From NCBI GenBank assembly GCA_021795795.1, contig JAJYPA010000089.1, forward strand, positions 1-20,842: a DNA stretch of 20,842 bases, given 5' to 3'. This DNA is from Pseudomonadota bacterium. GTDB lineage: Bacteria > Pseudomonadota > Gammaproteobacteria > Halothiobacillales > Halothiobacillaceae. The position numbers and the translations under genes were made by a program. Under the pieces are notes generated by a model. The model had not been told where the DNA came from. It saw nothing but the letters and a program-made list of their open reading frames with translations, and searched no databases. Shown here in pieces: positions 1 to 19,536 of the stretch. Position 1 is the stretch's first letter; every line of letters starts with the position of its first letter.

Positions 1-967
<967 letters not shown>

Positions 968-973
968 TTCTCC

Positions 974-1927
974 TTATTTCGGGCCGTAATCCAGAAACCA
1001 GCGATAGGTGTCCGCCACACCATCCCGCAGGTTAATGCTGGCTCGCCAGTTCTGAGCATGCAGTCGGCTCACGTCCAACAGTTTACGCGGCGTACCATCG
1101 GGCTTACTGGTGTCGTAAACGATCTCTCCGGAAAAACCGACGACCTCGGCCATCAGTATCGCTAATTCAGCGATGCTGATATCCTTGCCGACACCCACGT
1201 TGATAATGTCTTCATCACTATAATGCTGCATGAGATGCACGGCGGCATCGGCCAGATCATCGACGTGGAGAAACTCGCGCCGCGGCGTGCCCGTGCCCCA
1301 TACCACCACCTCTTGGGCGCCGGACATTTTGGCCTCGTGAAATTTGCGCATCATGGCCGGCATGACATGGGAGCTTTCCAGGTCAAAATTATCCCCTGGC
1401 CCATACAGATTGGTCGGCATGAGGCTGATGGCATCAAAAGCATATTGGCGTCGATAGGCCTGACAGGTCTTGATGCCGGCAATCTTGGCGATGGCATACC
1501 ACTCGTTGGTCGGCTCCAGCGATCCGGTGAGCAGGTATTCTTCCTTGATGGGTTGCGGTGCCAGCTTGGGGTAAATGCAGGATGAGCCCAGAAACACCAG
1601 CTTGCGCACATCATGCCGTCGCGCCGCATCGATCACGTTGTCCTGAATCACCAAGTTGCTGCGGATGAAGTCTGCCGGATAGGTGTTATTCGCGAGGATT
1701 CCGCCCACCTTAGCCGCCGCCAGAAAGACATGGCTCGGCTGCTGCGTGCGAAAATAGGCCTCCACGGCCGACTGGTCAGCTAAATCCACTTCGCTGCGGC
1801 TCGGCAGGAGCAGATTGCTAAATCCCGCCGTCCGTAAGTGCCGTGCAATGGCTGAACCCACCAGCCCGTGGGCGCCGGCCACGAAGATAGGGTCATCCAC
1901 GTTCATCGCATTGTTCGTACTATTCAT
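974..1927 (-). CDS. fcl: GDP-L-fucose synthase (3,5-epimerase/4-reductase)
   Basis: A 317-residue epimerase/reductase that turns GDP-4-keto-6-deoxymannose into GDP-L-fucose using NADPH. With the chosen start, the nucleotide motif GAHGLVG is at residues 18-24, GSSCIYP at about 114-120 carries the conserved Ser and Cys of the family, and YAIAK gives Tyr144 and Lys148. The stretch LEPTNEWYAIAKIAG closely resembles E. coli Fcl/WcaG. The frame stays open to a GTG at 1954, but the ATG at 1927 is preceded by AGGAG four bases away and gives the usual N-terminal length, so it is preferred. It sits 34 bases downstream of the WcaI-like gene and 6 bases before rmd. Also named wcaG in colanic acid clusters. 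Confidence 0.93.
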   Translation of the reverse strand: MNSTNNAMNVDDPIFVAGAHGLVGSAIARHLRTAGFSNLLLPSRSEVDLADQSAVEAYFRTQQPSHVFLAAAKVGGILANNTYPADFIRSNLVIQDNVIDAARRHDVRKLVFLGSSCIYPKLAPQPIKEEYLLTGSLEPTNEWYAIAKIAGIKTCQAYRRQYAFDAISLMPTNLYGPGDNFDLESSHVMPAMMRKFHEAKMSGAQEVVVWGTGTPRREFLHVDDLADAAVHLMQHYSDEDIINVGVGKDISIAELAILMAEVVGFSGEIVYDTSKPDGTPRKLLDVSRLHAQNWRASINLRDGVADTYRWFLDYGPK

Positions 1928-1931
1928 GACG

Positions 1932-1936
1932 CTCCT
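1932..1936 (-). promoter_or_regulatory. Ribosome binding site that decides the fcl start
   Basis: AGGAG on the minus strand ends four bases before the ATG at 1927. It lies inside the longer reading frame that begins with GTG at 1954. It therefore argues that the first nine codons of that longer frame are leader sequence and not protein. Confidence 0.55.
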
Positions 1937-1961
1937 CTCTTTTCCAATATTCACATTAATT

Positions 1962-3233
1962 TCAACAGTCGTCCGGCTGCCATTGAAGGCCCCTCAGCAG
2001 GACGCCTAAATCCTCTTCAAATCGTGCCAGAATATGATTTTTATCCAGAATGCGTTCCGCATAGGCGCGCGCATTGTGTCCGCAGGCCTCCCGCTGTCCG
2101 GGGTCCCGGGCCAGGCGCAGGATGGCCTCCGCGAGCGCAGCGGAATCGCCCGGCGGGGTTGCCAAACCTGTATTGGCGCCGGCCACCGCATCATGCAGCG
2201 CGGTACCCGGATCGACCGTCGCCACACAGGGCCGACCGGCCGCGAGAATATTGGTCAGCTTGGACGGCATGACCAGATCCGCCGCGTCCTGCCGCTGCAC
2301 CACTAAATGGATGTCACCGGCGGCGAGCATCTCCGCCAGGCGTTCCACCGGCTGCACCGGCACGAAGCGCAGATTTTGCAGGCCCATCGCCGCCGCCTGC
2401 CGCTCCAGCCGGAACCGCGCCCCCCCGGCACCGGCCATCAGGAATTGCAGGCGCGGCTCGTCGGCACATAGCCGCGCCGCCTCCAGCACCAGTTCCAACC
2501 CCTGCTTCTCCCCCATACCTCCGGCATAGAGGACCAGCACCGTCTCGTGGTCAATGCCGAACTCTTTGCGAAAATCGTTCGCACGTGGAGCCGGTCGCAC
2601 CGCCTCGATGTCCGCCCAGTTCGGAAACAACCAGGCGCGCTCCGGCTGTGTGCCCTTCTCGATCACGCGTTTGCGCATCGCCTCGGTAATGGTAGACACC
2701 CGCGTGGCATGGCTCAGCAGAAAGGCTTCTATACGATACAGCACTTGCCCCAGCATGCCGCCCGGTAGCATACCCAGGCGCAGCGCGGCATCGAGCTGCA
2801 AATCCTGAACATGCAGCACCCACGGCACGCCTCTGACCCAAGCATACAGGAGGGGCCATATTCCGATTTGCATCGGCGGCAGCACGGCGATCACCACATC
2901 CGGCTTTTGGCGCGAAAAAAAACGCGGTAGCCAGAATCGCGCCGCGCCCCAGGTGAAGTTCGTCTCCAGAACAATGCGCGTTCGCGCCCTGAGCTGGTCC
3001 GCGGTCGGTACATAATGCCGGGCGCGATGCACCCGCACGCCCGCCCGCGTCTCGCTACGGAAGCGGAACCCGTCATAGCCCGCCGCCACATGCCATTGCG
3101 GATAATGGGGCAGGCCGCAGATCACCTCCACGGTATGTCCCCGTGCGGCCAGCCATTCCGACATCTCGCCGGTGTACTTGCCAATGCCGGTGGGCTCGGG
3201 CGCGTAGTTGAGGCCGTAGATGAGGATATTCAT
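1962..3233 (-). CDS. wcaI: WcaI-like GT4 glycosyltransferase
   Basis: A 423-residue GT-B glycosyltransferase. The N-terminus MNILIYGLNYAPEPTGIGKY and the internal HVQDLQLDAALRLGML are typical of WcaI, the putative fucosyltransferase of colanic acid synthesis. The C-terminal donor domain starts near VLVLYAGGMGEKQGLELV. It carries PSKLTNILAAGRP in place of the classical EX7E motif, as is usual for this family. It acts on the cytoplasmic face of the inner membrane, adding a sugar to the lipid-linked repeat unit. The ATG overlaps the end of the WcaF-like gene by 4 bases (ATGA), with GGGAGG seven bases upstream. Nearby fcl and gmd suggest GDP-fucose as donor, but donor and acceptor are inferred. 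Confidence 0.85.
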   Translation of the reverse strand: MNILIYGLNYAPEPTGIGKYTGEMSEWLAARGHTVEVICGLPHYPQWHVAAGYDGFRFRSETRAGVRVHRARHYVPTADQLRARTRIVLETNFTWGAARFWLPRFFSRQKPDVVIAVLPPMQIGIWPLLYAWVRGVPWVLHVQDLQLDAALRLGMLPGGMLGQVLYRIEAFLLSHATRVSTITEAMRKRVIEKGTQPERAWLFPNWADIEAVRPAPRANDFRKEFGIDHETVLVLYAGGMGEKQGLELVLEAARLCADEPRLQFLMAGAGGARFRLERQAAAMGLQNLRFVPVQPVERLAEMLAAGDIHLVVQRQDAADLVMPSKLTNILAAGRPCVATVDPGTALHDAVAGANTGLATPPGDSAALAEAILRLARDPGQREACGHNARAYAERILDKNHILARFEEDLGVLLRGLQWQPDDC

Positions 3234-3829
3234 ACGTGCGCCTCCCGCATATTATTATTATTATTATCCTGTTCCCCGGTGAGCAACCGCTTTTTGAATG
3301 GTTTTGCCGGTGTACCCTTGGCCAACATCAACTCAGGAATATCCTCGAACACGGAACTGCGAGCGCCCACCACCGCGCCTCGTCCGATCCGGATACCCGG
3401 TGCGACGAACACATCGGTCGCAAGCCATGCCTCAGCACCGACCAGAATGGGTTTTGCATAGATATCAAAGGTAGGCTGGGTATAATCGTGGCTGCCGGTA
3501 CACAAATAGCAGCGCTGCGACACTACGGCATTGGCGCCAATATCAATCTCGCCCAGGCTGTACAGCACTACGTCATCACCAACCCAAGCGAAATCCCCAA
3601 TAGAGACTTTCCACGGATAGGTAATGCGTGCGCTGGGGCGAATGATAACGCCTTTCCCGATCTTCGCGCCGAAGAGTCTTAACAAGAAGCGGCGCCAGCC
3701 GTAAAGAAACTGCGGTGACCACGTAAACAGGCTGGACTGGACCAACCACCAAAGCTGCACGTACCACCCAGACCGACCGCGGAAAGTGGCGGGTACTCGA
3801 AAGCTCGACAGATTCTGAGCAAGTATCAT
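3230..3829 (-). CDS. wcaF: WcaF-like polysaccharide O-acetyltransferase
   Basis: A 199-residue left-handed beta-helix (hexapeptide repeat) acyltransferase, expected to acetylate a sugar of the repeat unit using acetyl-CoA. Diagnostic stretches are LFGAKIGKGVIIRPSARITY, GDDVVLYSLGEIDIG, CTGSHDYTQPTF (probable catalytic His near residue 114) and WLATDVFVAPGIRIG, all closely matching the colanic acid WcaF family. Start: the frame is open to ATGs at 3868 and 3862, but the ATG at 3829 has GGAAGAG six bases upstream and matches the E. coli WcaF N-terminus (LSSFRVP versus LSGFSVP). The C-terminus has a run of five Asn encoded by an AAT trinucleotide tract just before the overlap with wcaI. Confidence 0.87.
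   Translation of the reverse strand: MILAQNLSSFRVPATFRGRSGWYVQLWWLVQSSLFTWSPQFLYGWRRFLLRLFGAKIGKGVIIRPSARITYPWKVSIGDFAWVGDDVVLYSLGEIDIGANAVVSQRCYLCTGSHDYTQPTFDIYAKPILVGAEAWLATDVFVAPGIRIGRGAVVGARSSVFEDIPELMLAKGTPAKPFKKRLLTGEQDNNNNNMREAHV
3251..3267. repeat. Trinucleotide (ATT/AAT)5 tract near the end of the wcaF-like gene
   Basis: Five uninterrupted ATT units plus a partial unit on the plus strand encode a run of five Asn in the acetyltransferase tail, about 20 bases upstream of the wcaI start codon. Copy-number changes would keep the frame. The tract lies just upstream of the wcaI ribosome binding site. Confidence 0.8.
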
Positions 3830-3931
3830 CGTCGTCTCTTCCGCCTGATTCTGTTCACTCATACGCATCCAATGTACACAGCATCCAGTAAGCCAGTTAA
3901 TAAGTCAACTTCCAATCATACAATTTTATTA

Positions 3932-4042: not shown

Positions 4043-4046
4043 GGCC

Positions 4047-5249
4047 TCATGATTCACCTTTGGCACGGTGCGTATGTCGCTTAATGACGGCCTCGTACTC
4101 ATGCACTAGGCCACATGCTACCACATCCCAAGCCCATTTTTGCCGCACCAGTTCACGTCCAGCAATGCCCATGGCCTGTCGGCGTGGTGCGTCGCACAAC
4201 AACTCATCCAGTGCGTCGGCCACCTCGGCGACATCGCAACGCGTCACCAGTCCCGCGCCCGCAGTTGCGACTTCGCGATGAATGTTCACCTGATCGGAAA
4301 TGACTACTGGTGTTCCACAAGCAAGGGACTCGACCACCGTCATGCCAAAATTTTCGGTATACGACGGCAATGCAAACACGTCGGCGTCCACATATGCTTG
4401 CTTCACCTCTGCCCCTTGTAGAGACTCAACAAAGTGTACCGCGTCATTTAGTCCCTGTTCGGCCACCCAGCCGCGCACTTTTGCGCCGTATCCTTCATTG
4501 TCCGGCCCAGCGATGACCATACGCGCCTTCGGATGGCGTTCACGTACCCGAGCAAAAGCAGGGACGAGAAGGTCTAGACCTTTCTTAAAATTTATGCGCC
4601 CCAAAAACAATACCAAAGGAGCGTCACCCAATTTCCACTTTGACCGCAGAATGCCACGATTTGGAATAGACTGATATTGAGCCCAATCAATGGCGCTTGG
4701 AATAACAAATGATGGAGCTTTCAATTCCAAGTGGCTAGCTCGGTCCTTTTCGTCAAGAGTGATATAATGAATGGCGCCCGCATTATGTAAGTTTGGTAGA
4801 TCGAACCATTTTTCATACATTCTTTTTAAAAAAAGACTACGCGAACTTTTACCATGCACATATGGATCGAGCGATCCATGTGGCTTAATAATGTACGGCA
4901 CAGACTGCTTCCGCGCCTGATAAGCTGCCCAAGTTGGTGGAAAGCGATAAAGGCCATGGACATTAACCAAGTCGTAGTTTTTAACCTGTTTACGCAACCA
5001 AAGCGCCATTGACCGAGAATAAAGGATCTGATGAAGCCCAGACGGAAACACACAAAAAGTAACTTCTGAGCTAAAGTTATTACGGATGGTTTCATCATCG
5101 AGTTGCTCTGACGTCGGGTTGCCCCGGTTTGTCGTGCAAATGGTAACCGAATGTCCAGCTTTCACCTGCTCCGCAGTCAAAGAAGCAATGACGCTTGTCG
5201 TTCCGCCAGATGATGGCGCTACAGTAGAAATAACATGTAAGATACGCAT
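4047..5249 (-). CDS. GT4 family glycosyltransferase
   Basis: A 400-residue GT-B enzyme. The N-terminus MRILHVISTVAPSSGGTTSV is the usual acceptor-domain start with a Gly-rich turn. The donor domain begins near PLVLFLGRINFKKGLDLLVP, and ENFGMTVVE is a clear EX7E motif followed by SLACGTPVV. It should transfer a hexose or deoxyhexose from a nucleotide sugar to the growing lipid-linked oligosaccharide; donor and linkage cannot be read from sequence. The preferred start is the ATG at 5249, which overlaps the TGA of the GT2 gene by one base (TGATG). A GTG one codon earlier is possible. Its A+T content appears somewhat higher than that of the flanking fcl/rmd genes. Confidence 0.88.
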   Translation of the reverse strand: MRILHVISTVAPSSGGTTSVIASLTAEQVKAGHSVTICTTNRGNPTSEQLDDETIRNNFSSEVTFCVFPSGLHQILYSRSMALWLRKQVKNYDLVNVHGLYRFPPTWAAYQARKQSVPYIIKPHGSLDPYVHGKSSRSLFLKRMYEKWFDLPNLHNAGAIHYITLDEKDRASHLELKAPSFVIPSAIDWAQYQSIPNRGILRSKWKLGDAPLVLFLGRINFKKGLDLLVPAFARVRERHPKARMVIAGPDNEGYGAKVRGWVAEQGLNDAVHFVESLQGAEVKQAYVDADVFALPSYTENFGMTVVESLACGTPVVISDQVNIHREVATAGAGLVTRCDVAEVADALDELLCDAPRRQAMGIAGRELVRQKWAWDVVACGLVHEYEAVIKRHTHRAKGES

Positions 5250-6196
5250 CACTCCACCTTTATTTCTGCCGTGTGATCTGCGCTCATTGCAGATAGATTG
5301 ATATCAAGAACTGATTGTACTGCGACGTGCAGCGCTATGCCATCACGCTGCATCGTATGCTCAACTTCCATGACCTTCGCATCGACCAGAAGCCGGTACC
5401 ACAACCCTTGCATCGTATGGAACATCAGCCCTCTATAGCCATCCAGAAAGCCTGCACGAATCACTATCCGGTAAAAAAAATATAACCAAGGCCGTAGTCC
5501 CAGTGGCAGCCGTGCATAGACGCGCTCCTTCAACCACCGCTTGCGTGATGCCTGCCCCTTGAGTCCCTGGCTTGAATGCACTGTACTGTTACCTTGATGG
5601 CGCATCAGCAACAACTCTACAGCTTCACGGCTTGCGTAACGGTTATGCTTGTCAACCCACCAGGACCGATGGTTGAGGTTGTCGTCCACGATATTGCCGG
5701 CAATACGCTGGATTCGCCCATTGGGGACAACCATATGTTCGTCCATCCAACGCTGCTCGCATGATGCGACATCTTTTCGCCACACGCGGAGTAGCCACAT
5801 CGGCATCATGCCACCGTGCAAAATGCGGCGTCCCAAGAACGTAGTCGGTCTGCTTATTTCCAGTCCGGAAAGATCCGTGGCGGCGGCCTTCAGTGCTTGC
5901 GACAGCGTCAAAACCAGCTCATCGTCCAGATATTCATCTGCGTCCAGCCGCATCACCCAGTCAGTGCGGATTAAAACATGCTTCAACGCCCAATTTAATT
6001 GGGTTGCATGATTTGTCCATGGATTTTGCACAATCACTGCTCCCAAGGATCTCGCCATTTCCTCCGTGCCATCCGTTGAAAAGGAGTCGATCACCACCAC
6101 TTCGCACGCCACGCGCTGGGCACTCTTGATGCTGCGCTCAATGTGCAGCTTTTCATTATAGGTCATGATGATGACCGTCAGACTTGACTTAGGCAT
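5249..6196 (-). CDS. GT2 family glycosyltransferase
   Basis: A 315-residue GT-A enzyme. The N-terminus has SLTVIIMTYNEKLHIERSI, then VVVIDSFSTDGTEE, and the metal and nucleotide-sugar site LDADEYLDD near residues 83-91. This arrangement resembles the WaaE/KdtX-like branch of GT2, which often adds glucose or a similar hexose. Length is normal for that branch. The C-terminal part has a hydrophobic Tyr/Phe-rich stretch (near residue 235) that may contact the membrane. AGGTGG precedes the ATG by four bases. It opens a short coupled pair with the GT4 gene at 4047 and is preceded by a 145-base gap after the sulfoquinovose synthase gene. The specific sugar is unknown. Confidence 0.88.
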   Translation of the reverse strand: MPKSSLTVIIMTYNEKLHIERSIKSAQRVACEVVVIDSFSTDGTEEMARSLGAVIVQNPWTNHATQLNWALKHVLIRTDWVMRLDADEYLDDELVLTLSQALKAAATDLSGLEISRPTTFLGRRILHGGMMPMWLLRVWRKDVASCEQRWMDEHMVVPNGRIQRIAGNIVDDNLNHRSWWVDKHNRYASREAVELLLMRHQGNSTVHSSQGLKGQASRKRWLKERVYARLPLGLRPWLYFFYRIVIRAGFLDGYRGLMFHTMQGLWYRLLVDAKVMEVEHTMQRDGIALHVAVQSVLDINLSAMSADHTAEIKVE

Positions 6197-6341
6197 GGCA
6201 CCACCTGATTAGCATCTATGGTTTAGCCTTGAAAAGACTGCTGGCTATTATGGCTTGTGGAGTGTGTTTGATCGGGATAAACACGCAAAACAACTTTATA
6301 CACGTCTTGTCATACGCGTGCCCCATCTTCAGCTTACACGG
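6197..6341. other. Gap between sqdB-like gene and GT2 gene
   Basis: 145 bases with no convincing ORF. One AT-rich inverted repeat, GTGTTT/AAACAC, spans 6264-6284 but lacks a GC-rich stem or a U-tract, so I do not call a terminator. No clear -35/-10 pair is visible. Confidence 0.4.
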
Positions 6342-7523
6342 CTAACATGTCATCTCTATCGTGTGGTTCCACAACGACACGCAAGGAATCTTGCTGCGGT
6401 CGCAACGGTAGGCGTACTTACGGGCAATTTCTGTCACTTCTTCCATCAGGCCAAGTTCCAGGGTAATCGGATTCAACCCCAGGTGCAGGAAACGATCGTT
6501 AGCGACATAAAGCTCGTTTTCATCCGCTTCTTTTCTCGGGTTTTTCAAGTAATCGATCTTCGCTTCGGTCTTGTCTGCGATCATCTTGGCCAGGTCACGT
6601 ACCCGGTGGGTTTCGGTCATCTGATTATAGATGTGCACGCGGTCACCCAACTTTGGTGGGTTTTCCAGTGCGAGTTGAACGCACTTGACGCTGTCCTGGA
6701 TGTGAATGAAGGCTCGGGTCTGTCCGCCGGTTCCATGGACCGTAAGTGGGTAGTCTACGGCAGCCTGCATCAAAAAACGGTTAAGCACGGTGCCATAATC
6801 ACCATCGTAGTCGAAGCGATTGATCAACCGATCATCGAGTCGTGTCTGCTCGGTCTGGGTGCCCCAGACGATACCCTGGTGCAGATCGGTTACCCGAAGT
6901 CCGTCGTTCTTGTTGTAGAACGCAAACAGCAACTGATCCTGCGTCTTGGTCATGTGGTAGATGCTGCCGGGGTTGGCCGGATACAGAATCTCGTTTTCGA
7001 TGAGTACACCGTCGTCGGTTTCGACCTTGACGGTCAAATATCCCTCGGGAATTTTCATCCCTGCCGTGCCGTAGCCGTAAACCCCCATAGTGCCGAGATG
7101 CGCGACATGGATATCCTGGCCGCTTTCGATAATCGCCGCCAGGAGATTGTTGGTGGCGTTGAGGTTATTATCTACGGTATAGCGCTTGTGGTAGCTGGAT
7201 TTCATGGAGTAGGGGGCAGAACGTTGCTCGGCAAAATGCACGATGGCATCTGGATGCCAAGCATTGATCAGATCGAGGAACTGCCGGTAGTTTTCCGCCA
7301 CGTTGATATTGTGGAAGGCTATATCCCGTCCGGAGGCGTCTTTCCAGGCTTGCAGGCGTTCGCCCATAGGCCGGATGGGGGTAAGTGAATCGCACTCCAG
7401 TTCAATGTCGATCTTGCGACGGGAGAGATTGTCCACAATGGCCACTTCGTGACCAAGTGCCGAGAGATGCAAGCTCGTCGGCCATCCACAAAACCCATCG
7501 CCGCCCAGTACCAATACTTTCAT
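6342..7523 (-). CDS. sqdB: UDP-sulfoquinovose synthase (SQD1/SqdB/Agl3 type)
   Basis: A 393-residue extended SDR protein that makes UDP-sulfoquinovose from UDP-glucose and sulfite. It has LGGDGFCGWP at residues 6-15, VHFAEQRSAPYSM at 95-107, LGTMGVYGYG with Thr145, and YHMTK giving Tyr189 and Lys193. The stretches TDLHQGIVWG, LNRFLMQAAV and PLTVHGTGGQTR follow plant SQD1 closely, and the length matches. These are family-specific, so the call is firm. AAAGGAG lies 7-8 bases before the ATG. It is flanked by gaps of 145 and 219 bases, unlike the tightly packed neighbours. The surrounding glycosyltransferase, flippase and polymerase genes suggest the sugar goes into an extracellular glycan and not into the lipid SQDG. 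No SqdX/SQD2-like lipid transferase is recognisable nearby. Confidence 0.93.
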   Translation of the reverse strand: MKVLVLGGDGFCGWPTSLHLSALGHEVAIVDNLSRRKIDIELECDSLTPIRPMGERLQAWKDASGRDIAFHNINVAENYRQFLDLINAWHPDAIVHFAEQRSAPYSMKSSYHKRYTVDNNLNATNNLLAAIIESGQDIHVAHLGTMGVYGYGTAGMKIPEGYLTVKVETDDGVLIENEILYPANPGSIYHMTKTQDQLLFAFYNKNDGLRVTDLHQGIVWGTQTEQTRLDDRLINRFDYDGDYGTVLNRFLMQAAVDYPLTVHGTGGQTRAFIHIQDSVKCVQLALENPPKLGDRVHIYNQMTETHRVRDLAKMIADKTEAKIDYLKNPRKEADENELYVANDRFLHLGLNPITLELGLMEEVTEIARKYAYRCDRSKIPCVSLWNHTIEMTC

Positions 7524-7742: not shown

Positions 7743-8879
7743 TCATGCAGATTCCGAACGGTCGTTGCCGCTGCGAACGGTACGATAGGCGTTCATATAG
7801 CCAGCGATCATTGACTCTGTCGTATACTGTTTGGCATTTTCAAATCCGTTACTAATCAACAGGTTCCGATCGCCCCATGCCCCGACAATGGTAGCAGCAG
7901 CGCCCCGTGCGTCAGACACATCAAAGTAAATGGCGCCTTGCCCGCCCACCTCTGTCATCGGTGCCCGGTTGGTGGTGGCGACCAGACAACCGCAGGCTTG
8001 CGCCTCCACAATCGGCCAACCGAAGCCCTCCTGCAGTGACGGAAATAACAGTAGTCCAGCCCCGGAATATAGCGCCCGCAGGTCTTCATTATCGACCGGG
8101 CCGGTTTGGATAAGCCGAGCATCATGCCCCTGAGCCTGAAGCCAATTTACCACCTCTGCTTCGAGCGTCTTGCCGGCGATAACCAGTTGAAAGGCGCGAA
8201 ATGTGTCATGCTGAGTCAGGGCATCGAAGATCCGCGCCAATCCGGGGCGATTCTTATACCAATTATTGCTGCCCACATGCAGGACATACGGCGCGCCTCC
8301 CACACCCAATCGATCCAAGCGCACCCTCCTTTCGGCTTGATCCATAAAGCGATATGGGTAGTTCAACGCAATGGGCACAACGGATGTGCCGCCCTCGGCA
8401 GGAGAGCCTATCCGCAACCAATCTTGCTGGGTTTGCTCCGAATCGCAGACCACATGGGCCGCGCGTTTGAGGCCGCGCAATATCCAACGTTGAAGAAAAC
8501 GTCCGGTGAGCCGCAAAGGATTTTCAGACACCTCCCCCAAAGCGCTGCGTATAGCCAACATATCGTGGCAGGTCACGACACTCGGCTTATTGCCGAGCAT
8601 CGACGCATACATTCCGTTTCCCTGATCAGCAATATGGATCACATCAAAGCCCTTCGCCCGCCACCTCAATAAAGGTGGGAAAAGTAGGAAACGGTCAATA
8701 TATCCCAACCATTTATTGATCCCGCCATCGCCGCGTTTCAAGCGACCAAAGACGGGTGTTGGCCTTATCAATCGTGCATCCACGCTGGCCATTTCCAAAA
8801 CATGAACGAGCAGTTCGGCATAACGGTGCATGCTTTGCTGATAACTGAGTGGATAATTTCCCACAACCAGAATTTTCAT
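7743..8879 (-). CDS. GT4 family glycosyltransferase
   Basis: A 378-residue GT-B enzyme. It begins MKILVVGNYPLSYQQSMHRY; the donor domain begins at YVLHVGSNNWYKNRPGLARI, and EGFGWPIVE gives the EX7E motif, followed by AQACGCLVATT. The frame is open to an ATG at 8900, but that codon has no ribosome binding site. The ATG at 8879 has AGG nine bases upstream and gives the standard family start. It is the gene immediately upstream of the sulfoquinovose synthase gene, making it one candidate for a sulfoquinovosyl transferase, though it does not resemble SqdX. Donor and acceptor are not determinable. It ends 219 bases before the sqdB-like gene. Confidence 0.88.
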   Translation of the reverse strand: MKILVVGNYPLSYQQSMHRYAELLVHVLEMASVDARLIRPTPVFGRLKRGDGGINKWLGYIDRFLLFPPLLRWRAKGFDVIHIADQGNGMYASMLGNKPSVVTCHDMLAIRSALGEVSENPLRLTGRFLQRWILRGLKRAAHVVCDSEQTQQDWLRIGSPAEGGTSVVPIALNYPYRFMDQAERRVRLDRLGVGGAPYVLHVGSNNWYKNRPGLARIFDALTQHDTFRAFQLVIAGKTLEAEVVNWLQAQGHDARLIQTGPVDNEDLRALYSGAGLLLFPSLQEGFGWPIVEAQACGCLVATTNRAPMTEVGGQGAIYFDVSDARGAAATIVGAWGDRNLLISNGFENAKQYTTESMIAGYMNAYRTVRSGNDRSESA

Positions 8880-9064
8880 TGTATTCAACCTGAATATCAT
8901 GTTTCGAAAATTTTAATTTAGTCAGAGTTTCTAGCCTAATATTTCTATAATATCCGGTTTCGTTGGCGTCCCTACCATTATAAAATTGGGTCAATATTAC
9001 TTTGCAACATTTATGTTTGTTACTCAGAAAGTAGATTTATATGTGACATATTTGTCTCAAGCTT
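8880..9064. other. AT-rich gap between two GT4 genes
   Basis: About 185 strongly AT-rich bases with stops in all frames and no gene. It continues the AT-rich composition of the GT4 gene that ends at 9065. It contains a candidate promoter, listed separately. Confidence 0.5.
8977..9007 (-). promoter_or_regulatory. Candidate sigma-70 promoter upstream of the GT4 gene at 7743
   Basis: A perfect -10 hexamer TATAAT (8982 to 8977) has TTGCAA 19 bases upstream (9007 to 9002). The spacer is longer than the optimal 17 and the -35 is imperfect. In such AT-rich DNA chance matches are common. If real, it would start transcription about 90 bases before the GT4 ATG at 8879. Confidence 0.22.
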
Positions 9065-10276
9065 TTATTGTTGAGGCGCCAATTCTAATAGGGCGCGCGC
9101 ATCGACATCGAAACTATATTCTTTCTGTACCAAGTCATGTAACGCCTCCCCCATCCTTGATAATCGTTGTTTGTCGCTCGATATTTCATCCATAACGCGA
9201 GCTAGATCTTCCACATCTCCAGTTTTAAAAACGAAACCAGTGACGCCATTTACTACCAAATCAGGCCAGCACCCTACAGCATCAGAGACAATCACGGGTT
9301 TGCTAGTAATTCCCGCCTCATTAACAACTAAACCCCATGTTTCTCTATTGTTGCTAGGTAAAACCAATACATCTATACAAGCATACCATAGTGCTAACTC
9401 AACCTGGTCTTTGAACCCCATATAATGAATTTTCATATTATTGGAGACAGCGTGTTCGACAATCCAACGCAATTCGCCATCGCCCACAAATGCAAGATGG
9501 GTATCACTATTGACACTATCACACAGATTATTAAATGCCTTTATGAGTGTTTCAACACCCTTTCTATGAGATAATTTTCCAACAAAAGAAAAAAGTATTG
9601 AGTCATTGCTAAGGCCTAATCCTGCACGCATTTTATGCCGTTCTGCCGAATGTGCGGTCATCATGAAATAGTCGTTATCAATTGCCCACGGCATAGATTT
9701 AATTTTATCACGGGGGACGCCATGACTTGAATAATAGTCAGTATTTGCGCTGCCGACCGACAGGAAGCCATTTGCGATCATCAGCACTAAGCGAAAGTAT
9801 AGTTTTTTCAATTTTATATTTCTGGCAGTGCGTACCACGGATATCAGATTCGCGTCATCACGAAAATACACCTTAACACCCAGAAGACGAGCGATAATTG
9901 CTGACCATAAATGAAATGGACGGCTATAACCAACAATAATGAGAATCTCGGGTTTGATTTTTCTTATAGCCTTCAATAAACCATAATTAAATGGTGAAAA
10001 AAAGGATACTTTAGCCACGGAGCCAATCGCGGGGAGAAAAATATGGTTATAACCTTCCAATAGTGGTCTTCCCCAGTTTACAGGTCGACCGAATTCTTTA
10101 TCGATTGCGTTTACTATTGAGCAATTACTTTGATAAATTGCTGATACTTCGGTATTATAATTTTTGTTCATGAAAGAAAATAGCGGCGATAAATATTGTA
10201 TTGGATGTGTTACCAAGAAACAAATCTTTATTTTCCCAGTTCTTGATGTTGATCCGTTGTATGCAGTCTTTAACAC
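9065..10276 (-). CDS. GT4 family glycosyltransferase, AT-rich
   Basis: A 403-residue GT-B enzyme with the chosen start. The body begins KIKICFLVTHPIQYLSPLF, a common opening in GT4 enzymes of O-antigen and capsule clusters. The donor domain begins near ILFSFVGKLSHRKGVETL, and ETWGLVVNE is the EX7E motif. The frame is open to a GTG at 10354 that overlaps the upstream stop, but nothing like a ribosome binding site precedes it. GTG at 10276 has GGAG seven bases upstream and trims an unusual Arg-rich leader, so it is preferred. Codon use is visibly AT-rich compared with the flanking genes, suggesting separate acquisition. Sugar specificity is unknown. Confidence 0.85.
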   Translation of the reverse strand: MLKTAYNGSTSRTGKIKICFLVTHPIQYLSPLFSFMNKNYNTEVSAIYQSNCSIVNAIDKEFGRPVNWGRPLLEGYNHIFLPAIGSVAKVSFFSPFNYGLLKAIRKIKPEILIIVGYSRPFHLWSAIIARLLGVKVYFRDDANLISVVRTARNIKLKKLYFRLVLMIANGFLSVGSANTDYYSSHGVPRDKIKSMPWAIDNDYFMMTAHSAERHKMRAGLGLSNDSILFSFVGKLSHRKGVETLIKAFNNLCDSVNSDTHLAFVGDGELRWIVEHAVSNNMKIHYMGFKDQVELALWYACIDVLVLPSNNRETWGLVVNEAGITSKPVIVSDAVGCWPDLVVNGVTGFVFKTGDVEDLARVMDEISSDKQRLSRMGEALHDLVQKEYSFDVDARALLELAPQQ

Positions 10277-10283
10277 GTCATAT

Positions 10284-10287
10284 CTCC
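10284..10287 (-). promoter_or_regulatory. Ribosome binding site supporting an internal GTG start
   Basis: GGAG on the minus strand lies seven bases before GTG at 10276, within the longer open frame of the AT-rich GT4 gene. It supports starting the protein 26 codons after the most upstream GTG at 10354. Confidence 0.45.
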
Positions 10288-10350
10288 ATCTGCAATAAAT
10301 TAATAACAGCCTTCTGTTTGTATGCCTGTTAGCAAAACCAACGATGTCTA

Positions 10351-11589
10351 TCACAAAGCACGGATAAACTCAGTCACCTTCTCTTTATAACGCCCCCAAG
10401 TGAACCCTTTAGCGCGCTCCCGAGCGTTTTGGCCCATGCGCAAACGATCTTCCGGGTGCGTACGCAAGAATTCCAGCTTCTCGACAATGGCATCCACATC
10501 GCGGATCGGTACGACGAAACCATCCACCCCATCGCGCACCAGATCACCCGGGCCATTGGGAGTTGTGATCACGGGCAGCCCAGACGCCATGGCTTCCAAG
10601 ACGACCAGGCCCATGCCTTCCAACAGACTAGGGAATACAAAGACGTCCGCATTCTGGTATATCTTCGGAAGGTCTGCCTGTGGTACGTGGGGAATATGCT
10701 TGAAGTCATCGCGGAAAGGGATAAATGGACGCATATCATCGGGGTAATTTCCGACGAGCACAAGCTCCGTATTGGCATTTTTAAAACGCCGATAGGCTCG
10801 CAGCAGGTAGGAAACACCCTTACGCTGCACGATGCTCCCAACAAACAATGCTCTAAAAGTTTCTCCCCGTTCTGCTCTTGATGACCGTTGGGAAAACCGC
10901 GTAAGATCCGCACCGTAAGGAATGACGATCATCTTCTCTGCTGGAAATCCTTCTTCCATGAATGCGTTACGGGCAAATTGCGATCCGACTAGTATCCGGT
11001 CTGCTTGTTCACATTCCATATCCAACTCTGCCTCCTGCCAAGTCACCGATGAACGGCTCCAGTCGGGGAGTGTCGAGGCGAAAGATGGCTCCAGTTCACT
11101 TTCCTCTGCCACAAATCGCTGTATATAACGATGATGAGCAATGGGATAGTTCAGTACCTTTAGGCCAGACGCACGCGCAAACATCTTATAACTGACCTGC
11201 GCATTACCAACAACCAAGTCGGCATCTTCCGCATAGCGGCTCGCCACGGTAGCTAACCGTTTTTGGATGGTCAAATTGAGGCGATTTGTTACCGCCTTAC
11301 CTCCGGAACCAACAAAGTGTAAAATGCCCGCCCGCATTAGATCTTGCCACACGGCAGTTTCTTTGATATGACCTTTTAATTCAGGAGGCATCTCCCGTCG
11401 GCCGAAAGTCCTCGCGTAAATACGCCCCAGTGCTGGTAACGCATTGATAGCGCGTTCCCAATCTCGATGCTGGTTTGCATACGGTCGGATATAGGCTTGC
11501 AATAGGCCCTGCGTCGCAAGGGCAGTAGCAAAATGATTCAACTCCGGTGCACTGTAGCTAACAACAAGAACACCGTTATTTTTATTCAT
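10351..11589 (-). CDS. GT4 family glycosyltransferase
   Basis: A 412-residue GT-B enzyme. The N-terminal domain starts NNGVLVVSYSAPELNHFATA. An internal AHHRYIQRFV and ADRILVGSQFARNAF with VIPYGADLTRF mark the interdomain region. The donor domain begins RALFVGSIVQRKGVSYLL, and EGMGLVVLE is a perfect EX7E motif followed by AMASGLPVITTPNGPGDLV. GGAG lies eight bases before the ATG at 11589. The protein is expected at the cytoplasmic membrane face, extending the repeat unit. It follows the Wzy-like polymerase gene by 39 bases. The sugar is unknown. The acceptor domain is longer than in minimal GT4 proteins, suggesting a distinct acceptor. Confidence 0.89.
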   Translation of the reverse strand: MNKNNGVLVVSYSAPELNHFATALATQGLLQAYIRPYANQHRDWERAINALPALGRIYARTFGRREMPPELKGHIKETAVWQDLMRAGILHFVGSGGKAVTNRLNLTIQKRLATVASRYAEDADLVVGNAQVSYKMFARASGLKVLNYPIAHHRYIQRFVAEESELEPSFASTLPDWSRSSVTWQEAELDMECEQADRILVGSQFARNAFMEEGFPAEKMIVIPYGADLTRFSQRSSRAERGETFRALFVGSIVQRKGVSYLLRAYRRFKNANTELVLVGNYPDDMRPFIPFRDDFKHIPHVPQADLPKIYQNADVFVFPSLLEGMGLVVLEAMASGLPVITTPNGPGDLVRDGVDGFVVPIRDVDAIVEKLEFLRTHPEDRLRMGQNARERAKGFTWGRYKEKVTEFIRAL

Positions 11590-11628: not shown

Positions 11629-13038
11629 TCAATTATTTTCGTGATTTAACTTGGTCGCAGCCAAGGTAACCCCCAAGAAAAACCATGTATACCCATTCAT
11701 CGTTCCCTGAACGGTGATTTGCCCCATTAAAATAAGTTCCCCAGAAAAGCTGAATAACATAAGCGCCAACGGATCGTGATTCTTCTTGGTAGACCGCCAC
11801 ACTTTCATTAGCAACCAGAAAGTAAACCATATTCTGAAAAAGGTGTAAGCAAAACCAAGCACCAGACCCAGATCGATAAGGTGCACCGCCCATCCACTTT
11901 CTTTCGCCCATACTCCATAACCGGTCCACAGATGGGCGGCAGATGGTTCTTGAACCCAAGTCACGCGCGCTGCAGCATTGGTACCCAGACCTAATAGGTA
12001 TCCTGTGAAGGGCGTATTCAGGTAGTATATCCACCCATACAAGGGGTATAGGGCGCGACCGAAAATCCCGAGAGCAAAATGGGATCTTTCCCAAGCCCCG
12101 GTCCATCGCGTGATAAACGCAAGAAAAGCCTCCGGAAATGTGATAGGCCACAAAATTATTAGTAATACAGTAGCGAGTAATGGCCACAGACCGGACCGTA
12201 TAGCAAGTTGCCGCCTGTTGGAAATAATACCGGCGATAGATGTTGCTACGAGAACCAAACCAACCTGTAGCATCGCACCACGGCCTTGACTAAAAGCCAT
12301 CATTGATAACAGTGCTAATGTTGCCGCGAGCAACACGGGCTTTCGTACTACAGTGTTTTGTTTGGAGGTAATCCATCCATACAACACCGCAATCGCGAGT
12401 GTGGCAAGGAACATCTGCAAGCCAAGCGAACTGGAGAAAAAGCCGGCTGGCCGGATATGCCCCAGTCCCGAACTCAACTCATGAAACTGGTTGACAGCAC
12501 TGACTGCATCTCCGGCATTAATGACTGAATTTGATGGTGACATAAACTGGAGTGCAACCAACGGCGCAGATACAATACCTATCCACACCGTATACCGCAA
12601 AAGTCGCCGAATATCATCCTGCCGGAACTCTTTGGCGATAATAAAGATGAGAGGAATATAAAAAAAATAGGTTAGCCAACCATAGCCGGCGATAATACCG
12701 TAGCGCAGGGCATAGTGACCAATAAGCATTTGCACTGGTATTAAAAGTAGGGCACTAGCCGCCATGAGATAGGCAAAATTAAGCAACGCCCCCGCTCTTG
12801 GCCACATATTCTTCATCAAACTTATGCCATACAGCCACAAGGTGAAGGGCACCGCTATAAAAAACAATGGCTTTTGCAGTTGCGGTAGACCCCACTTGCG
12901 TAACGAACCAGAGAAGATCAACAGCCAGTACAGTATAAAGATGATCCGTACTATCCAGACCCGAGCCGCTTCACGTTTGCGCGCCGCACGGCCCGCATCC
13001 AAATTACTAATCATCTGCTGCTGTAATAACACGGCCAT
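11629..13038 (-). CDS. Wzy-like polysaccharide polymerase (O-antigen ligase/polymerase-like membrane protein)
   Basis: A 469-residue integral membrane protein. About ten or more hydrophobic segments are visible, for example VWIVRIIFILYWLLIFSG near residue 27, LLNFAYLMAASALLLIPVQM near 85, YFFYIPLIFIIA and LLATVLLIILWPITF. A large hydrophilic loop near residues 310-380 (from WTGAWERS to EPSAAHLWTGYG) fits the periplasmic catalytic loop of polymerases. Wzy proteins are poorly conserved, so the call rests on topology, size and position between the flippase and glycosyltransferases. It would polymerise repeat units at the periplasmic face. GGTGA precedes the ATG at 13038. A ligase or an unrelated transporter is less likely but possible. 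Confidence 0.7.
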   Translation of the reverse strand: MAVLLQQQMISNLDAGRAARKREAARVWIVRIIFILYWLLIFSGSLRKWGLPQLQKPLFFIAVPFTLWLYGISLMKNMWPRAGALLNFAYLMAASALLLIPVQMLIGHYALRYGIIAGYGWLTYFFYIPLIFIIAKEFRQDDIRRLLRYTVWIGIVSAPLVALQFMSPSNSVINAGDAVSAVNQFHELSSGLGHIRPAGFFSSSLGLQMFLATLAIAVLYGWITSKQNTVVRKPVLLAATLALLSMMAFSQGRGAMLQVGLVLVATSIAGIISNRRQLAIRSGLWPLLATVLLIILWPITFPEAFLAFITRWTGAWERSHFALGIFGRALYPLYGWIYYLNTPFTGYLLGLGTNAAARVTWVQEPSAAHLWTGYGVWAKESGWAVHLIDLGLVLGFAYTFFRIWFTFWLLMKVWRSTKKNHDPLALMLFSFSGELILMGQITVQGTMNGYTWFFLGVTLAATKLNHENN

Positions 13039-13077: not shown

Positions 13078-13689
13078 TTATGGCAATATCCGTGGAGTTG
13101 GCCCAACCCATGCCTCTAGGGGCGCGTTCCATAGTACAGGTGAATATCGCAAATCCGTATTCCGCTGGATGGGGTGAGTTGTGGCGGGATTGCCCGACAC
13201 TATCGTGTAATTAGGGACATCGTGACGGATGACAGCTCCTGCTCCAACTACAGCACCGCGACCGATTGTCACACCCGGTAATACGATTGCGTTCGTCGCA
13301 ACCCATGCGTAATCATCGATCACAATGGGGGCTTTCTTGTGTGACCAGCTTGGGTCTTGAAGTGAATGTGATGCCGTCAGCAAAACAACGCCGTCATTGA
13401 TCACCACCCGCCGCCCAATGGTTACACGATCATGCAAAGCGATTTTACAGCGCCCCAATGAAGCCTCTTCACCGATGGAAAGGAGCGTAATCTTCCCCTC
13501 GATTCTGGACTTGCCGAGAACGACTAAACGGCTTATCGATGCACCTCGCCATCTGAACAGCATCGAACGTACCAAGAGTCGATACAGCTTGAAGAGATGA
13601 TAGCAACGCTTCACCCAAACTTTGGCCCACCGGCGCGGGTTTGTTGGTTTTTCCCGGTTTCGCCACAGATAGAGGACATCGCTCAACAT
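13078..13689 (-). CDS. Hexapeptide-repeat acyltransferase (probable sugar O-acetyltransferase)
   Basis: A 203-residue left-handed beta-helix acyltransferase. It begins MLSDVLYLWRNREKPTNPRR, has a basic helix, and then hexapeptide turns from SISRLVVLGKSRIEG onwards. TASHSLQDP holds the likely catalytic His near residue 108. VIDDYAWVATNAIVLPGVTIG, GRGAVVGAGAVI and SGNPA complete the coenzyme A fold. It is the second such enzyme in the locus, so the polymer may carry two acylated positions. The frame is open to 13776, but the ATG at 13689 overlaps the upstream gene by 7 bases and has GGGAG seven bases before it, so it is preferred. Substrate is inferred from context; acetyl is the usual group. 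Confidence 0.85.
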   Translation of the reverse strand: MLSDVLYLWRNREKPTNPRRWAKVWVKRCYHLFKLYRLLVRSMLFRWRGASISRLVVLGKSRIEGKITLLSIGEEASLGRCKIALHDRVTIGRRVVINDGVVLLTASHSLQDPSWSHKKAPIVIDDYAWVATNAIVLPGVTIGRGAVVGAGAVIRHDVPNYTIVSGNPATTHPIQRNTDLRYSPVLWNAPLEAWVGPTPRILP

Positions 13690-14684
13690 TTGCCTTCTCC
13701 CAGATTTTGGATACCTAGGAATTCCCGAAGCGTGGCAACGTGACATGCAATCCCATGCGACTGATACCACCTCCACGCGTCTTCGCCTATCCGTTGCGTC
13801 TTGTCGATATCGACAAGACCGGTCGGCACCCCCGGCAGATAATGCTGCCCGGCCAGCAAGTCATCTGATGGTGCATATTTCTCGGAAAGAATGACAGAGC
13901 AAAGACCATGGGCACAATAGGCCGCAAAGACACTACTTTTTGCTATATAGCTGATAGGATAGGTAATGATCCCAAACAGTGCAATCCGCATCAGATTTGA
14001 GATGTTGCCCGCCTCAAGCCGTCCATGCTGGATCACATTGTTGGCCGTTTGGGCGTCTATAACCTCTGTATCCGTGACTGGTGATCCAACGTCGTGTATC
14101 TCCAGCGATTGGAGTTTGGCCCATTGGAAAAGCTCGCTACCGGCGGTCCGATAAATTTTTGTTCGTAGCCCGGCGCTACCAAACACCACGAGACGGTTCT
14201 TACGGACGGTAGGCAACAATAGGGGTTCACCCACGGTGGAAAAAACCGGTAGGACAGCATGCGGCTTGTGCTTCGTATGCTGACACAGCCATTGTGCCGA
14301 CTCCTCACGATTGGTCATCCAGAAGTCCGACATTTCAGCCATACGGCGCACCACGTGGCGCTGCACGGGCGACAGCCAAAATGCGGATTTCCAGGGCGGC
14401 CCAAAGGCATAAAGCTCGTGGAAGAAGACACCAAACTTTTTGATTTTATGCCGTTGCCCCTCCATCGCACGCAAAAGCCACAGCGCGGTCCCTCGTTTAC
14501 TGTATTCGTAACCAGTCATCATGAGCACGACAGAGTCACCCGCCTGGATTTTGATATGTCCAATAGTAATAGTACCTATGGAAAGCGGCACAAGATTGAC
14601 AATGTCAGCCCCCATTTCCGCTTGTACAATGCGCGCAAAATCATATACGCCCCCTGGCCTTCCAGATATAACAAAATGAATCAT
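13683..14684 (-). CDS. Divergent GT-B-like glycosyltransferase candidate
   Basis: A 333-residue soluble protein. It opens MIHFVISGRPGGVYDFARIV, like the glycine-loop start of a GT-B enzyme; a middle RLVVFGSAGLRTKIY resembles the donor-domain entry. Near the C-terminus, SSVFAAYCAHGLCSVIL aligns by pattern with the EAMACGLPVI region of GT4 proteins, but the acidic EX7E residues are missing. It may use a different active-site arrangement or be a non-classical transferase. The ATG at 14684 has GGGG five bases upstream; an ATG seven codons earlier (14705) is possible. It sits between wzx and the acyltransferase and overlaps the latter by 7 bases. Function is inferred from fold-like pattern and context only. 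Confidence 0.5.
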   Translation of the reverse strand: MIHFVISGRPGGVYDFARIVQAEMGADIVNLVPLSIGTITIGHIKIQAGDSVVLMMTGYEYSKRGTALWLLRAMEGQRHKIKKFGVFFHELYAFGPPWKSAFWLSPVQRHVVRRMAEMSDFWMTNREESAQWLCQHTKHKPHAVLPVFSTVGEPLLLPTVRKNRLVVFGSAGLRTKIYRTAGSELFQWAKLQSLEIHDVGSPVTDTEVIDAQTANNVIQHGRLEAGNISNLMRIALFGIITYPISYIAKSSVFAAYCAHGLCSVILSEKYAPSDDLLAGQHYLPGVPTGLVDIDKTQRIGEDAWRWYQSHGIACHVATLREFLGIQNLGEGKC

Positions 14685-14752
14685 TAAGTCCCCGTTTATC
14701 TGCATTATCTACCACAATTTACCACTGCCTGGTTACTCAACGCACAGATATG

Positions 14753-16213: not shown

Positions 16214-17031
16214 CGGCGCTCCTGAAGGGCTTGCAAAGCCGCCGCCAACTCCCCCAGCACCATATTGATCTTTTGCTCACTTTTCGCCAACCAAGCCAGT
16301 CCCGGTGTTATGTAGCGCTCCAACTGCGTCGTGCGATGCAGATCCGTACCCCAGAGTGTGGGGAGTTCGCGGTCCAGCAGCCCACGGGCGAAGGCCTGCG
16401 GCTGTGTCCCGTATTGCCCGGCCAGGCTCCCGATATCGCACTGCATCCAGGCACCGGATTGTTCGATTTGCGGCAACCATGCGGATGGATCCTGCTCCAC
16501 GTAGCGATAGCGTTCCACATGGGCCAGCACCGGTTGATATCCCGCCCGACGCAGCGCCCTGAGGACATCCATACCGCAGGGCGCGGGCATGAGGGCCGGG
16601 AATTCCACCAGGACGATTTTTTGCTTTCCCACGGGCAGATAGAGCACATCCCCCCGGTCGATGGCGGCGAACATCGTTTCATCGGCAAAATATTCGGCGG
16701 CGAGATGCAGGCCGAAACCACTGTCGATGCTTTGCCGCAGGGTATGGAAGGCTTCGCGCAGCCGATCGGGGGTATTGTCATAGACACCCGGATAAATATG
16801 TGGGGTAAGCACGGCCCCCAGATAACCGAGGGCGCGCATGCCGGCGATGGCGGTTTGCGTTTCTTCCAGGCTGCGCAGACCGTCATCCACCGCCGGGAGC
16901 AAATGGCAATGGAAATCCCAGGCGGCTGCCGCGGGTTCCCGTGCCGGAGCTTCCGGAGCCGCGGCTGGCCAGAGGCGGCGCAGTGCCTGTATCACCGTTT
17001 TTTGCCCAGGCGCTTCAGCAGCCGCCGCCAT
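16210..17031 (-). CDS. CpsB/YwqE-type PHP-domain tyrosine phosphatase
   Basis: A 273-residue metal-dependent phosphatase. DFHCHLLPAVDDG at residues 39-51, TPHIYPGV near 76, AEYF at 112-115, HVERY at 171-175 and GTDLH at 228-232 together give the PHP metal-binding set. It should dephosphorylate the tyrosine tail of the adjacent Wzc kinase in the cytoplasm. This enzyme class replaces the low-molecular-weight Wzb phosphatase common in enterobacteria. The N-terminal 38 residues are Ala/Pro-rich and precede the usual family start. The ATG at 17031 overlaps wzc by 40 bases and has its AAAGG too close; a GTG at 16995 overlaps the wzc stop in a GTGA junction like other junctions here and may be the true start. 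Confidence 0.9.
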   Translation of the reverse strand: MAAAAEAPGQKTVIQALRRLWPAAAPEAPAREPAAAAWDFHCHLLPAVDDGLRSLEETQTAIAGMRALGYLGAVLTPHIYPGVYDNTPDRLREAFHTLRQSIDSGFGLHLAAEYFADETMFAAIDRGDVLYLPVGKQKIVLVEFPALMPAPCGMDVLRALRRAGYQPVLAHVERYRYVEQDPSAWLPQIEQSGAWMQCDIGSLAGQYGTQPQAFARGLLDRELPTLWGTDLHRTTQLERYITPGLAWLAKSEQKINMVLGELAAALQALQERR

Positions 17032-19526: not shown

Positions 19527-19532
19527 GATATA

Positions 19533-19536
19533 TCCT
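19533..19536 (-). promoter_or_regulatory. Ribosome binding site that decides the wzc start
   Basis: AGGA on the minus strand overlaps the TAG stop of wza (19537 to 19535) and lies six bases before the GTG at 19526. It supports tight translational coupling of wza and wzc, and a start 34 codons inside the longest open frame. Confidence 0.5.

Follow-up and report, generated by a model that had tools for sequence, protein, structure and literature searches.

The 20,842-nt contig JAJYPA010000089.1 of a Pseudomonadota bacterium (assembly GCA_021795795.1), called the window where its whole length is meant, carries a homologue of sqdB, the gene for UDP-sulfoquinovose synthase, among genes for building and exporting a Wzx/Wzy-type polysaccharide. 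Sulfoquinovose is chiefly known as a lipid head group, that of sulfoquinovosyl diacylglycerol (SQDG), and represents a very large pool of organic sulfur. Judging from gene content, it is probable, taking both steps together, that the window gene encodes a functional synthase and that its product becomes part of the polysaccharide exported by the locus.

The sqdB product

The gene occupies 6342..7523 on the minus strand as an uninterrupted open reading frame (ORF) of 393 codons. A search against solved structures gave SQD1 as the top match (1qrr, 1i24; residues 2–385, E about 1e-90), and identity with plant SQD1 is 41.6% over 375 aligned residues. The protein is 64–66% identical to the SqdBs of three SQDG-type operons, in which sqdB stands with a glycosyltransferase gene of family 8 (GT8), from Sinorhizobium (L081), Loktanella (L084) and Palleronia (L085). 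It scores 344 bits with the UDP-sulfoquinovose synthase model NF041015, the next model reaching 49.8.

The family signature, given as [ST]MG-xn-Y-x3-K in Table 1 of PMC8987622, is present as T145-M146-G147 and Y189-x3-K193. In Agl3, the Sulfolobus acidocaldarius enzyme, replacement of H95, R101, M145, Y182 or K186 by alanine gives an inactive protein (PMC4388408); the equivalents in the window SqdB, read through an alignment with SQD1 in which Agl3 is not included, are H96, R101, M146, Y189 and K193. An earlier note on this DNA had called the product a UDP-sulfoquinovose synthase with Thr145, Tyr189 and Lys193 intact, and the full-length homology and the alignment with SQD1 bear out both statements, with minus as the coding strand. 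One departure from the reference is Val148, in place of Glu147 of Agl3 and SQD1; the Agl3 variants E147A and Y148A retain 12–15% of the 5,6-ene-forming activity (12.4% for E147A; PMC4388408). Because the same valine is found in the SqdBs of the Sinorhizobium, Loktanella and Palleronia operons, it seems to mark this clade and to be no defect, and the reading as a pseudo-enzyme owing to this substitution is rejected. In S. meliloti, sqdB is required for SQDG.

A decayed or chance ORF is also rejected, because of the full length and the conserved residues. An overlapping plus-strand ORF at 6255..7388 (377 codons, TTG start) is presumed to be a shadow that the conserved sqdB casts on the other strand. 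Phage records gave no match to SqdB at E 1e-40.

The surrounding locus

Seventeen genes were called in the window, sqdB and 16 others, all on the minus strand:

80..967, minus: nucleotide-sugar short-chain dehydrogenase/reductase (SDR) of the dehydratase/reductase type (PF16363, PF01370; no equivalog above cut-off)
974..1954, minus: GDP-L-fucose synthase, Fcl (NF047922, 507.7 bits, above the cut-off of 500)
1962..3233, minus: WcaI-family glycosyltransferase of family 4 (GT4) (NF007640, 441 bits, above the cut-off of 276)
3230..3868, minus: WcaF-family acetyltransferase (NF007797, 278 bits, above the cut-off of 192)
4047..5252, minus: GT4 glycosyltransferase (PF00534; HpsP-like, 239.8 bits, below cut-off)
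5249..6196, minus: glycosyltransferase of family 2 (GT2), directly downstream of sqdB (PF00535)
6342..7523, minus: sqdB, UDP-sulfoquinovose synthase homologue, 393 residues (SQD1 match, NF041015 at 344 bits, catalytic residues)
7743..8900, minus: GT4 glycosyltransferase, directly upstream of sqdB (PF00534/PF13692; no NCBIfam model above cut-off)
9065..10354, minus: GT4 glycosyltransferase (PF00534)
10351..11589, minus: GT4 glycosyltransferase (PF00534; BLASTP match to a glycosyltransferase of locus L012)
11629..13038, minus: putative polymerase, Wzy (Wzy_C touch in a homologue, membrane-like segments, position in the locus)
13078..13776, minus: hexapeptide-repeat acetyltransferase (PF00132)
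13683..14705, minus: 340-residue protein, perhaps a glycosyltransferase (no Pfam or NCBIfam match)
14753..16213, minus: Wzx flippase (PF01943, PF13440)
16210..17031, minus: CpsB/CapC-type tyrosine phosphatase (PF19567)
16992..19628, minus: Wzc-type chain-length determinant and tyrosine kinase (PF02706, PF13807, PF13614; TIGR01007, 127.1 bits, above 108.05)
19535..20677, minus: Wza-type outer-membrane export protein (PF02563, PF22461; homologues)

In gene order, Wza, Wzc, the phosphatase, Wzx, the 13683..14705 protein, an acetyltransferase, the putative Wzy and three GT4s come before sqdB, and the GT2, a GT4, the WcaF-type acetyltransferase, the WcaI-type GT4, GDP-fucose synthase and the SDR come after it. 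Five GT4s, one GT2 and two hexapeptide acetyltransferases are thus present, and membership in a Wzx/Wzy-type locus is indicated by Wza (PF02563), Wzc (PF02706 with PF13807 and PF13614) and Wzx (PF01943). The glycosyltransferases and flippase that the earlier note saw around sqdB are confirmed by Pfam; the polymerase it also named is only probable. The ORF at 11629–13038 does not itself match any Pfam family; a simple count from hydropathy gives it eight membrane-like segments, and Wzy_C was found in one of 15 homologues, weakly (E 0.0033). No initiating sugar-phosphate transferase (PF02397) was found among the 17 genes, and the locus may extend past either end of the window.

Upstream of sqdB the gap to the next gene measures 219 bases, and downstream 145. 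A search for terminator-like sites from 4000 to 9200 gave none on the coding strand and two on the opposite one, against 4.9 expected on both strands. The G+C content is 40–53% in the locus centre (4 to 15 kb) and 55–64% at the ends; a low-G+C centre would fit a variable polysaccharide locus.

In the proposed pathway, the window SqdB would make UDP-sulfoquinovose from UDP-glucose and sulfite, presumably by the mechanism proposed for Agl3, in which UDP-glucose is oxidised and dehydrated before sulfite is added (PMC4388408; PMC8987622). One of the glycosyltransferases of the locus would attach the sugar to an undecaprenyl-linked repeat unit in the cytoplasm, after which Wzx would flip the unit, the putative Wzy polymerise it, and Wzc and Wza export the chain. 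The predicted product is a surface polysaccharide that contains fucose and sulfoquinovose and carries O-acetyl groups; its sulfonate would be charged at pH 1–2.

Some smaller features of the locus may be mentioned here. The putative Wzy family seems narrow, as 57 of the 7,998 candidates scored reach E 1e-10 or better, and its named members come from Acidithiobacillus, Methylococcus and a Sulfobacillus metagenome-assembled genome (MAG). The 13683–14705 ORF overlaps the acetyltransferase ORF by 94 bases. The TTG start listed for Wzc produces a 94-base overlap with Wza, and the true start is probably further downstream. Plasmid records searched with the Wzc DNA gave no match.

sqdB loci in relatives

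Close relatives were taken as the best 80 of at least 553 SqdB matches in genome contigs (76–83% identity), with genes called by our own ORF scoring and families labelled by profile searches from few seeds; absences are lower bounds. Of 369 gammaproteobacterial genomes in an even draw, 29 have an SqdB match at E 1e-60 or better: 15 of these hold 17 places at 62–82% identity, and the other 14 have relatives at 36–43% only. By a sorting into three kinds that is our own, seven of the 17 places are near a lipid-type GT4 (L123, L125, L128 and L134, which also have a metallophosphoesterase, and L130, L132 and L136). Six have polysaccharide or sulfur-activation genes (L012, L122, L124, L126, L127, L131), with an export or initiator label in L012 and L131 only. 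The remaining four are unassigned (L129, L133, L135 and L137, the last with Wza and Wzc 7–9 kb away).

Several loci parallel the window. In Salinisphaera hydrothermalis (L012) the order is APS (adenosine 5'-phosphosulfate) kinase, then Wzb-Wza-Wzc-SqdB-Wzx-GT4; L003 has Wzb-Wzc-sugar transferase followed by a fusion of SqdB to PAPS (3'-phosphoadenosine 5'-phosphosulfate) reductase; L131 has sqdB with a phosphoglycosyltransferase (PGT), GT4s and Wzy_C; and L124 reads Wzy_C-APS kinase-Ugd-SqdB. Some of the sugar-transfer genes are also related: the WcaI-family GT4 (1962..3233) is 65% identical over 414 residues to a glycosyltransferase in L003, and the GT4 at 10351..11589 is 42% identical over 420 residues to one in L012.

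Two genomes have two copies. In S. hydrothermalis (G004) an 82% copy lies in the Wza-Wzc locus and a 72% copy near a metallophosphoesterase and lipid-type GT4. G158 has an 82% copy joined to PAPS reductase, on a 5.7-kb contig with a NusG-family gene close by, and a second copy, at 68%, with the lipid-type pair. In both, the non-lipid copy is the nearer to the window SqdB (82% versus 68–72%). Overall, the comparative evidence favours a putative surface-glycan role for the window SqdB.

Sulfite supply

A PAPS-reductase domain is fused to SqdB in seven of the best 120 of 7,998 protein homologues (661–688 residues; N-terminal in the three read). Among the 80 close loci, a PAPS reductase is fused to sqdB or within about 10 kb of it in 16, which span Gammaproteobacteria, Alphaproteobacteria, Nocardioidaceae and Rubrobacter; four of these are fusions (L001, L003, L021 and L036, the match in L036 being weak and partial). 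None was recognised in the other 64. On a 103-sequence tree, this character changes state at least 15 times. APS kinase is near sqdB in L012 and L124. A sulfite source fused to SqdB fits UDP-sulfoquinovose synthesis. Acidithiobacilli oxidise sulfur compounds via sulfite.

On two Rhodobacterales plasmids (L082, L083), sqdB is next to or near a PAPS reductase, among or near glycosyltransferase genes. In the second, an annotated sulfotransferase (L083:13340-14929) lies between the two, and this may be one polysaccharide locus making both sulfonated and sulfated sugars.

Points against an exported polysaccharide

A number of observations weigh against the proposed destination. No sulfite-supplying gene was found in the window, and none of its glycosyltransferases is common to the compared polysaccharide-type sqdB loci, which leaves no shared sulfoquinovosyltransferase candidate. 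The window SqdB falls short of the 575 bits at which NF041015 sets its equivalog cut-off, which is a threshold for naming and no property of the enzyme. Since that cut-off is reached in none of 20 genomes with relatives and in one of 14 control genomes, it seems narrower than the enzyme family, and the score is therefore not read as failed family membership.

The earlier note had suggested surveying SqdB homologues for co-occurrence with wza, wzc and wzx, and the survey made here does not support such a link as a general rule. A Wza, Wzc, Wzb, Wzx, CpsB or PGT gene lies within about 10 kb in at least six of the 80 close relatives only, a range that would leave out the window's own Wzc and Wza. 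None of the assigned labels is present in 28 loci, including most from Maricaulis; an RmlA label was given to 16, and 19 are near a different kind of GT2. One locus, L016 (79% identical), is the only one of the 80 with a lipid-type pair, a GT4 and metallophosphoesterase about 5–6 kb from sqdB, mid to mid.

Tree positions are also mixed. The tree has 72 rows (57 loci and 10 listed proteins picked by hand, four further loci and the window) and was made quickly and without bootstrap; 27 of its 68 inner branches are open and long branches meet at the outgroup. The window falls in a group of 57 rows (Shimodaira-Hasegawa-like approximate likelihood ratio test, SH-aLRT, 82; outer fork 95), outside which are the SqdBs of three SqdD-type operons and of five lipid-type GT4 loci. 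The polysaccharide-type L131 also branches outside, and the lipid-type L125 and L128 (72–74%) and L016 branch inside.

The idea that the whole clade is linked to exopolysaccharide is contradicted by the 80-locus survey. Clade membership therefore gives no exopolysaccharide destination, which rests on the window's own locus and the parallel ones. The central claim of the earlier note, that sulfoquinovose is in the exported polymer, accordingly comes out strengthened in one part, by the PAPS-reductase fusions and adjacencies and by the separate lipid-type and other copies in G004 and G158, and weakened in another, as the clade by itself does not point to an exopolysaccharide.

Host and strain distribution

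The window Wza matches three proteins under the name Acidithiobacillus ferrivorans at 91–92% identity, one further protein at 94% and that of A. ferrooxidans ATCC 23270 at 77%; for the putative Wzy, identity with proteins of both species is 74%. From these matches the host is most likely an Acidithiobacillus close to A. ferrivorans. An acidophilic host, at which the earlier note had guessed, is likely because of the Wza identity. No close match to the window Wza came from the 369 gammaproteobacterial genomes (three matches, best 60% identity), from two genomes in the family of G287 (G287 itself the one match) or from 398 genomes of the phylum (no match, and no positive control).

The homologues P0001 (SqdB) and P0241 (Wzy) are each 97% identical to their counterparts in the window, and both come with three contigs, the longest 25,667; for P0004 (SqdB, 96%) and P0253 (Wzy, 75%) the longest contig is 25,904 in both cases. 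These shared figures suggest linkage of the sqdB and wzy homologues. The contigs of named A. ferrooxidans and A. ferrivorans with Wzy (73,589 and 70,009) or Wza (3,409,655) are absent among the best 120 of 7,998 SqdB matches, and for this reason sqdB looks strain-variable in acidithiobacilli.

The exopolysaccharide (EPS) of At. ferriphilus R1 contains glucose, rhamnose, fucose, xylose, mannose, glucuronic acid and Fe(III), and fcl is present in At. ferrivorans CF27 (PMC9592645). Fucose in the proposed polymer fits published EPS of acidithiobacilli.

Lipid or other glycan as the destination

The UDP-sulfoquinovose could instead feed SQDG through a glycosyltransferase encoded elsewhere, the place of sqdB in a polysaccharide locus being incidental. 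Relatives give this some substance: SqdBs 64–74% identical to that of the window stand with lipid-type genes, which are GT8 and SDR genes in the Sinorhizobium, Loktanella and Palleronia operons and a lipid-type GT4 in seven of the 17 even-draw places (four of them with a metallophosphoesterase as well); L016 has been described above. SQDG has also been found in lipids of an acidic pit lake, the source organism not being given in the extract (PMC7565709). Against this, no lipid-type partner was recognised in the window, sqdB seems strain-variable among acidithiobacilli (best 120 of 7,998 matches), and among the papers listed in the literature searched none is apparently on SQDG of an Acidithiobacillus. 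A lipid destination is considered unlikely.

The comparison of partners bears out the earlier note, which had seen no SqdX-like lipid transferase nearby, for the 17 window genes; cyanobacterial SqdX itself lay outside it. No GT8 is among these genes, and the best window GT4 reaches 70 bits against the lipid-type GT4s linked to SqdB (30% identity over 255 residues; short segments reach as much as 46%, over 56 residues), which are 55–69% identical among themselves. "Lipid-type" denotes arrangement and family, with no reference Agt or PlcP sequence in the comparison. A count was also made over 102 loci (80 + 6 + 16), which are all the called loci with at least 60% identity after removal of short-flank duplicates, Wza loci and L087/L088. 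PAPS reductase (19) and lipid transferase (11) occur together in none of them; because about two would be expected by chance (19 x 11 / 102), this shows little, and in a sign test on the tree there were too few differing pairs to tell.

The arrangement of sqdB near a lipid-type GT4 and metallophosphoesterase in several Gammaproteobacteria (L123, L125, L128, L134, L016) resembles the plcP-glycosyltransferase pair known from lipid remodelling (PMC8231724). It might be an SQDG module of a kind distinct from the sqdB-GT8 type.

Another surface glycan, such as the O-chain of lipopolysaccharide or a glycoprotein, might receive the sulfoquinovose rather than a free exopolysaccharide. Wzx/Wzy machinery also builds O-antigens, archaeal sulfoquinovose is carried on N-glycans (PMC8987622; PMC4343526), and 19 of the 80 close relatives are near a GT2 that resembles, strongly in 14 cases, the L006:6513-8789 C-terminal domain. 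The presence of Wza, Wzc and a CpsB-type phosphatase in this gene run points, however, to capsule or exopolysaccharide export, and we regard this alternative as improbable.

The 14 strong GT2 matches (358–385 bits; the other five are weak) are from eight Pseudonocardiaceae and six Rubrobacteraceae or other Actinobacteria. The eight from Pseudonocardiaceae are fused to a large N-terminal region without a Pfam match. An initial description of the partner in all 19 loci as a membrane glycosyltransferase was rejected, as the label reflects the GT2 domain throughout and the L006 N-terminal region is found in only eight. The L006:6513-8789 C-terminal domain scores 75–87 bits, below cut-off, with polyprenyl- and dolichyl-phosphate hexose transferase and AglJ models. 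Examples of a GT2 near SqdB that resembles polyprenyl-phosphate hexose transferases, from Prauserella, Rubrobacteraceae and two proteobacterial MAGs, are L006:6513-8789, L020:11197-12249 (a DUF2304 fusion), L002:5077-6030 and L061:12508-13464. The GT2-associated SqdBs might direct sulfoquinovose to a periplasmic or cell-wall use.

That the enzyme has lost sulfite addition and makes another nucleotide sugar, such as the 5,6-ene, would accord with valine at the position of Agl3 Glu147, whose alanine variant has 12.4% of 5,6-ene-forming activity (PMC4388408), and is very improbable given the same valine in SQDG-type operons, the PAPS-reductase fusions among close homologues, and intact H96, R101, M146, Y189 and K193.

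Comparison with known systems

The window SqdB shares sequence family, TMG-Y-x3-K signature, H96 and R101 with SQD1/SqdB of the SQDG pathway (EC 3.13.1.1). Its setting differs, in that no adjacent GT8, lipid-type GT4 or SqdC-like SDR was recognised in the window and a polysaccharide export locus is found instead. The window SqdB is expected to carry out the same reaction as Agl3 of the S. acidocaldarius N-glycan pathway, and the five residues whose change to alanine inactivates Agl3 are present here, although Glu147 of Agl3 is replaced by valine and a bacterial Wza/Wzc/Wzx locus takes the place of archaeal N-glycosylation. Colanic-acid-like loci also have Wza, Wzc, Wzx, WcaI- and WcaF-family proteins and GDP-fucose synthase; unlike them, the window has a CpsB/CapC-type phosphatase and sqdB as a precursor gene, and no sugar-phosphate initiator was seen in it.

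Non-lipid sulfoquinovose is on record in archaea, with Agl3 and N-glycans (PMC8987622). The S-layer glycan of Haloferax volcanii, with sulfoquinovose-hexose repeats (PMC4343526), resembles the proposed polymer in being a repeating surface glycan with this sugar; it is protein-linked and archaeal, whereas the polymer here is a bacterial Wzx/Wzy-type one predicted from genes. A paper on S. acidocaldarius exopolysaccharide names sulfoquinovose, in its extract, for glycoproteins (PMC9549778). Among the papers listed in the literature searched, which under-represents subscription journals, none is apparently on sulfoquinovose in a bacterial exopolysaccharide.

A broader proposal is offered tentatively, the case for it falling a little short of balanced. 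A widespread branch of SqdB would serve surface glycans and not lipids, often with its own PAPS reductase, using Wzx/Wzy in Gammaproteobacteria and a GT2 like polyprenyl-phosphate hexose transferases in Actinobacteria, with the window as the acid-proof exopolysaccharide of a mineral-oxidising Acidithiobacillus. If bacteria do put sulfoquinovose into surface polysaccharides, the sugar would have a source other than photosynthetic membranes, and many uncharacterised SqdB genes would acquire a function. A carboxylate is largely protonated at pH 1–2 and a sulfonate is not; because the sulfonate thus stays charged, the window sqdB would offer a direct genetic test of permanent charge in mineral attachment. 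Attachment of Acidithiobacillus to minerals has been attributed mainly to EPS, and added glucuronate raised it (PMC9592645).

A separate SQD1-like family was also encountered (L104-L117, L126:16548-17726, L138, L139). Its members keep TMGEYG and are 41–51% identical to SQD1 (seven compared), with proline at the position of the Agl3-essential Arg101; among 14 low-identity survey matches the motif there is EQPSAP in 12 and ELPSAP in two. A member from Rhodanobacter (L138) is part of a Wzb-Wzc locus that also has a PAPS reductase, and L126 has one copy of each family, SqdB and the proline type, about 10 kb apart.

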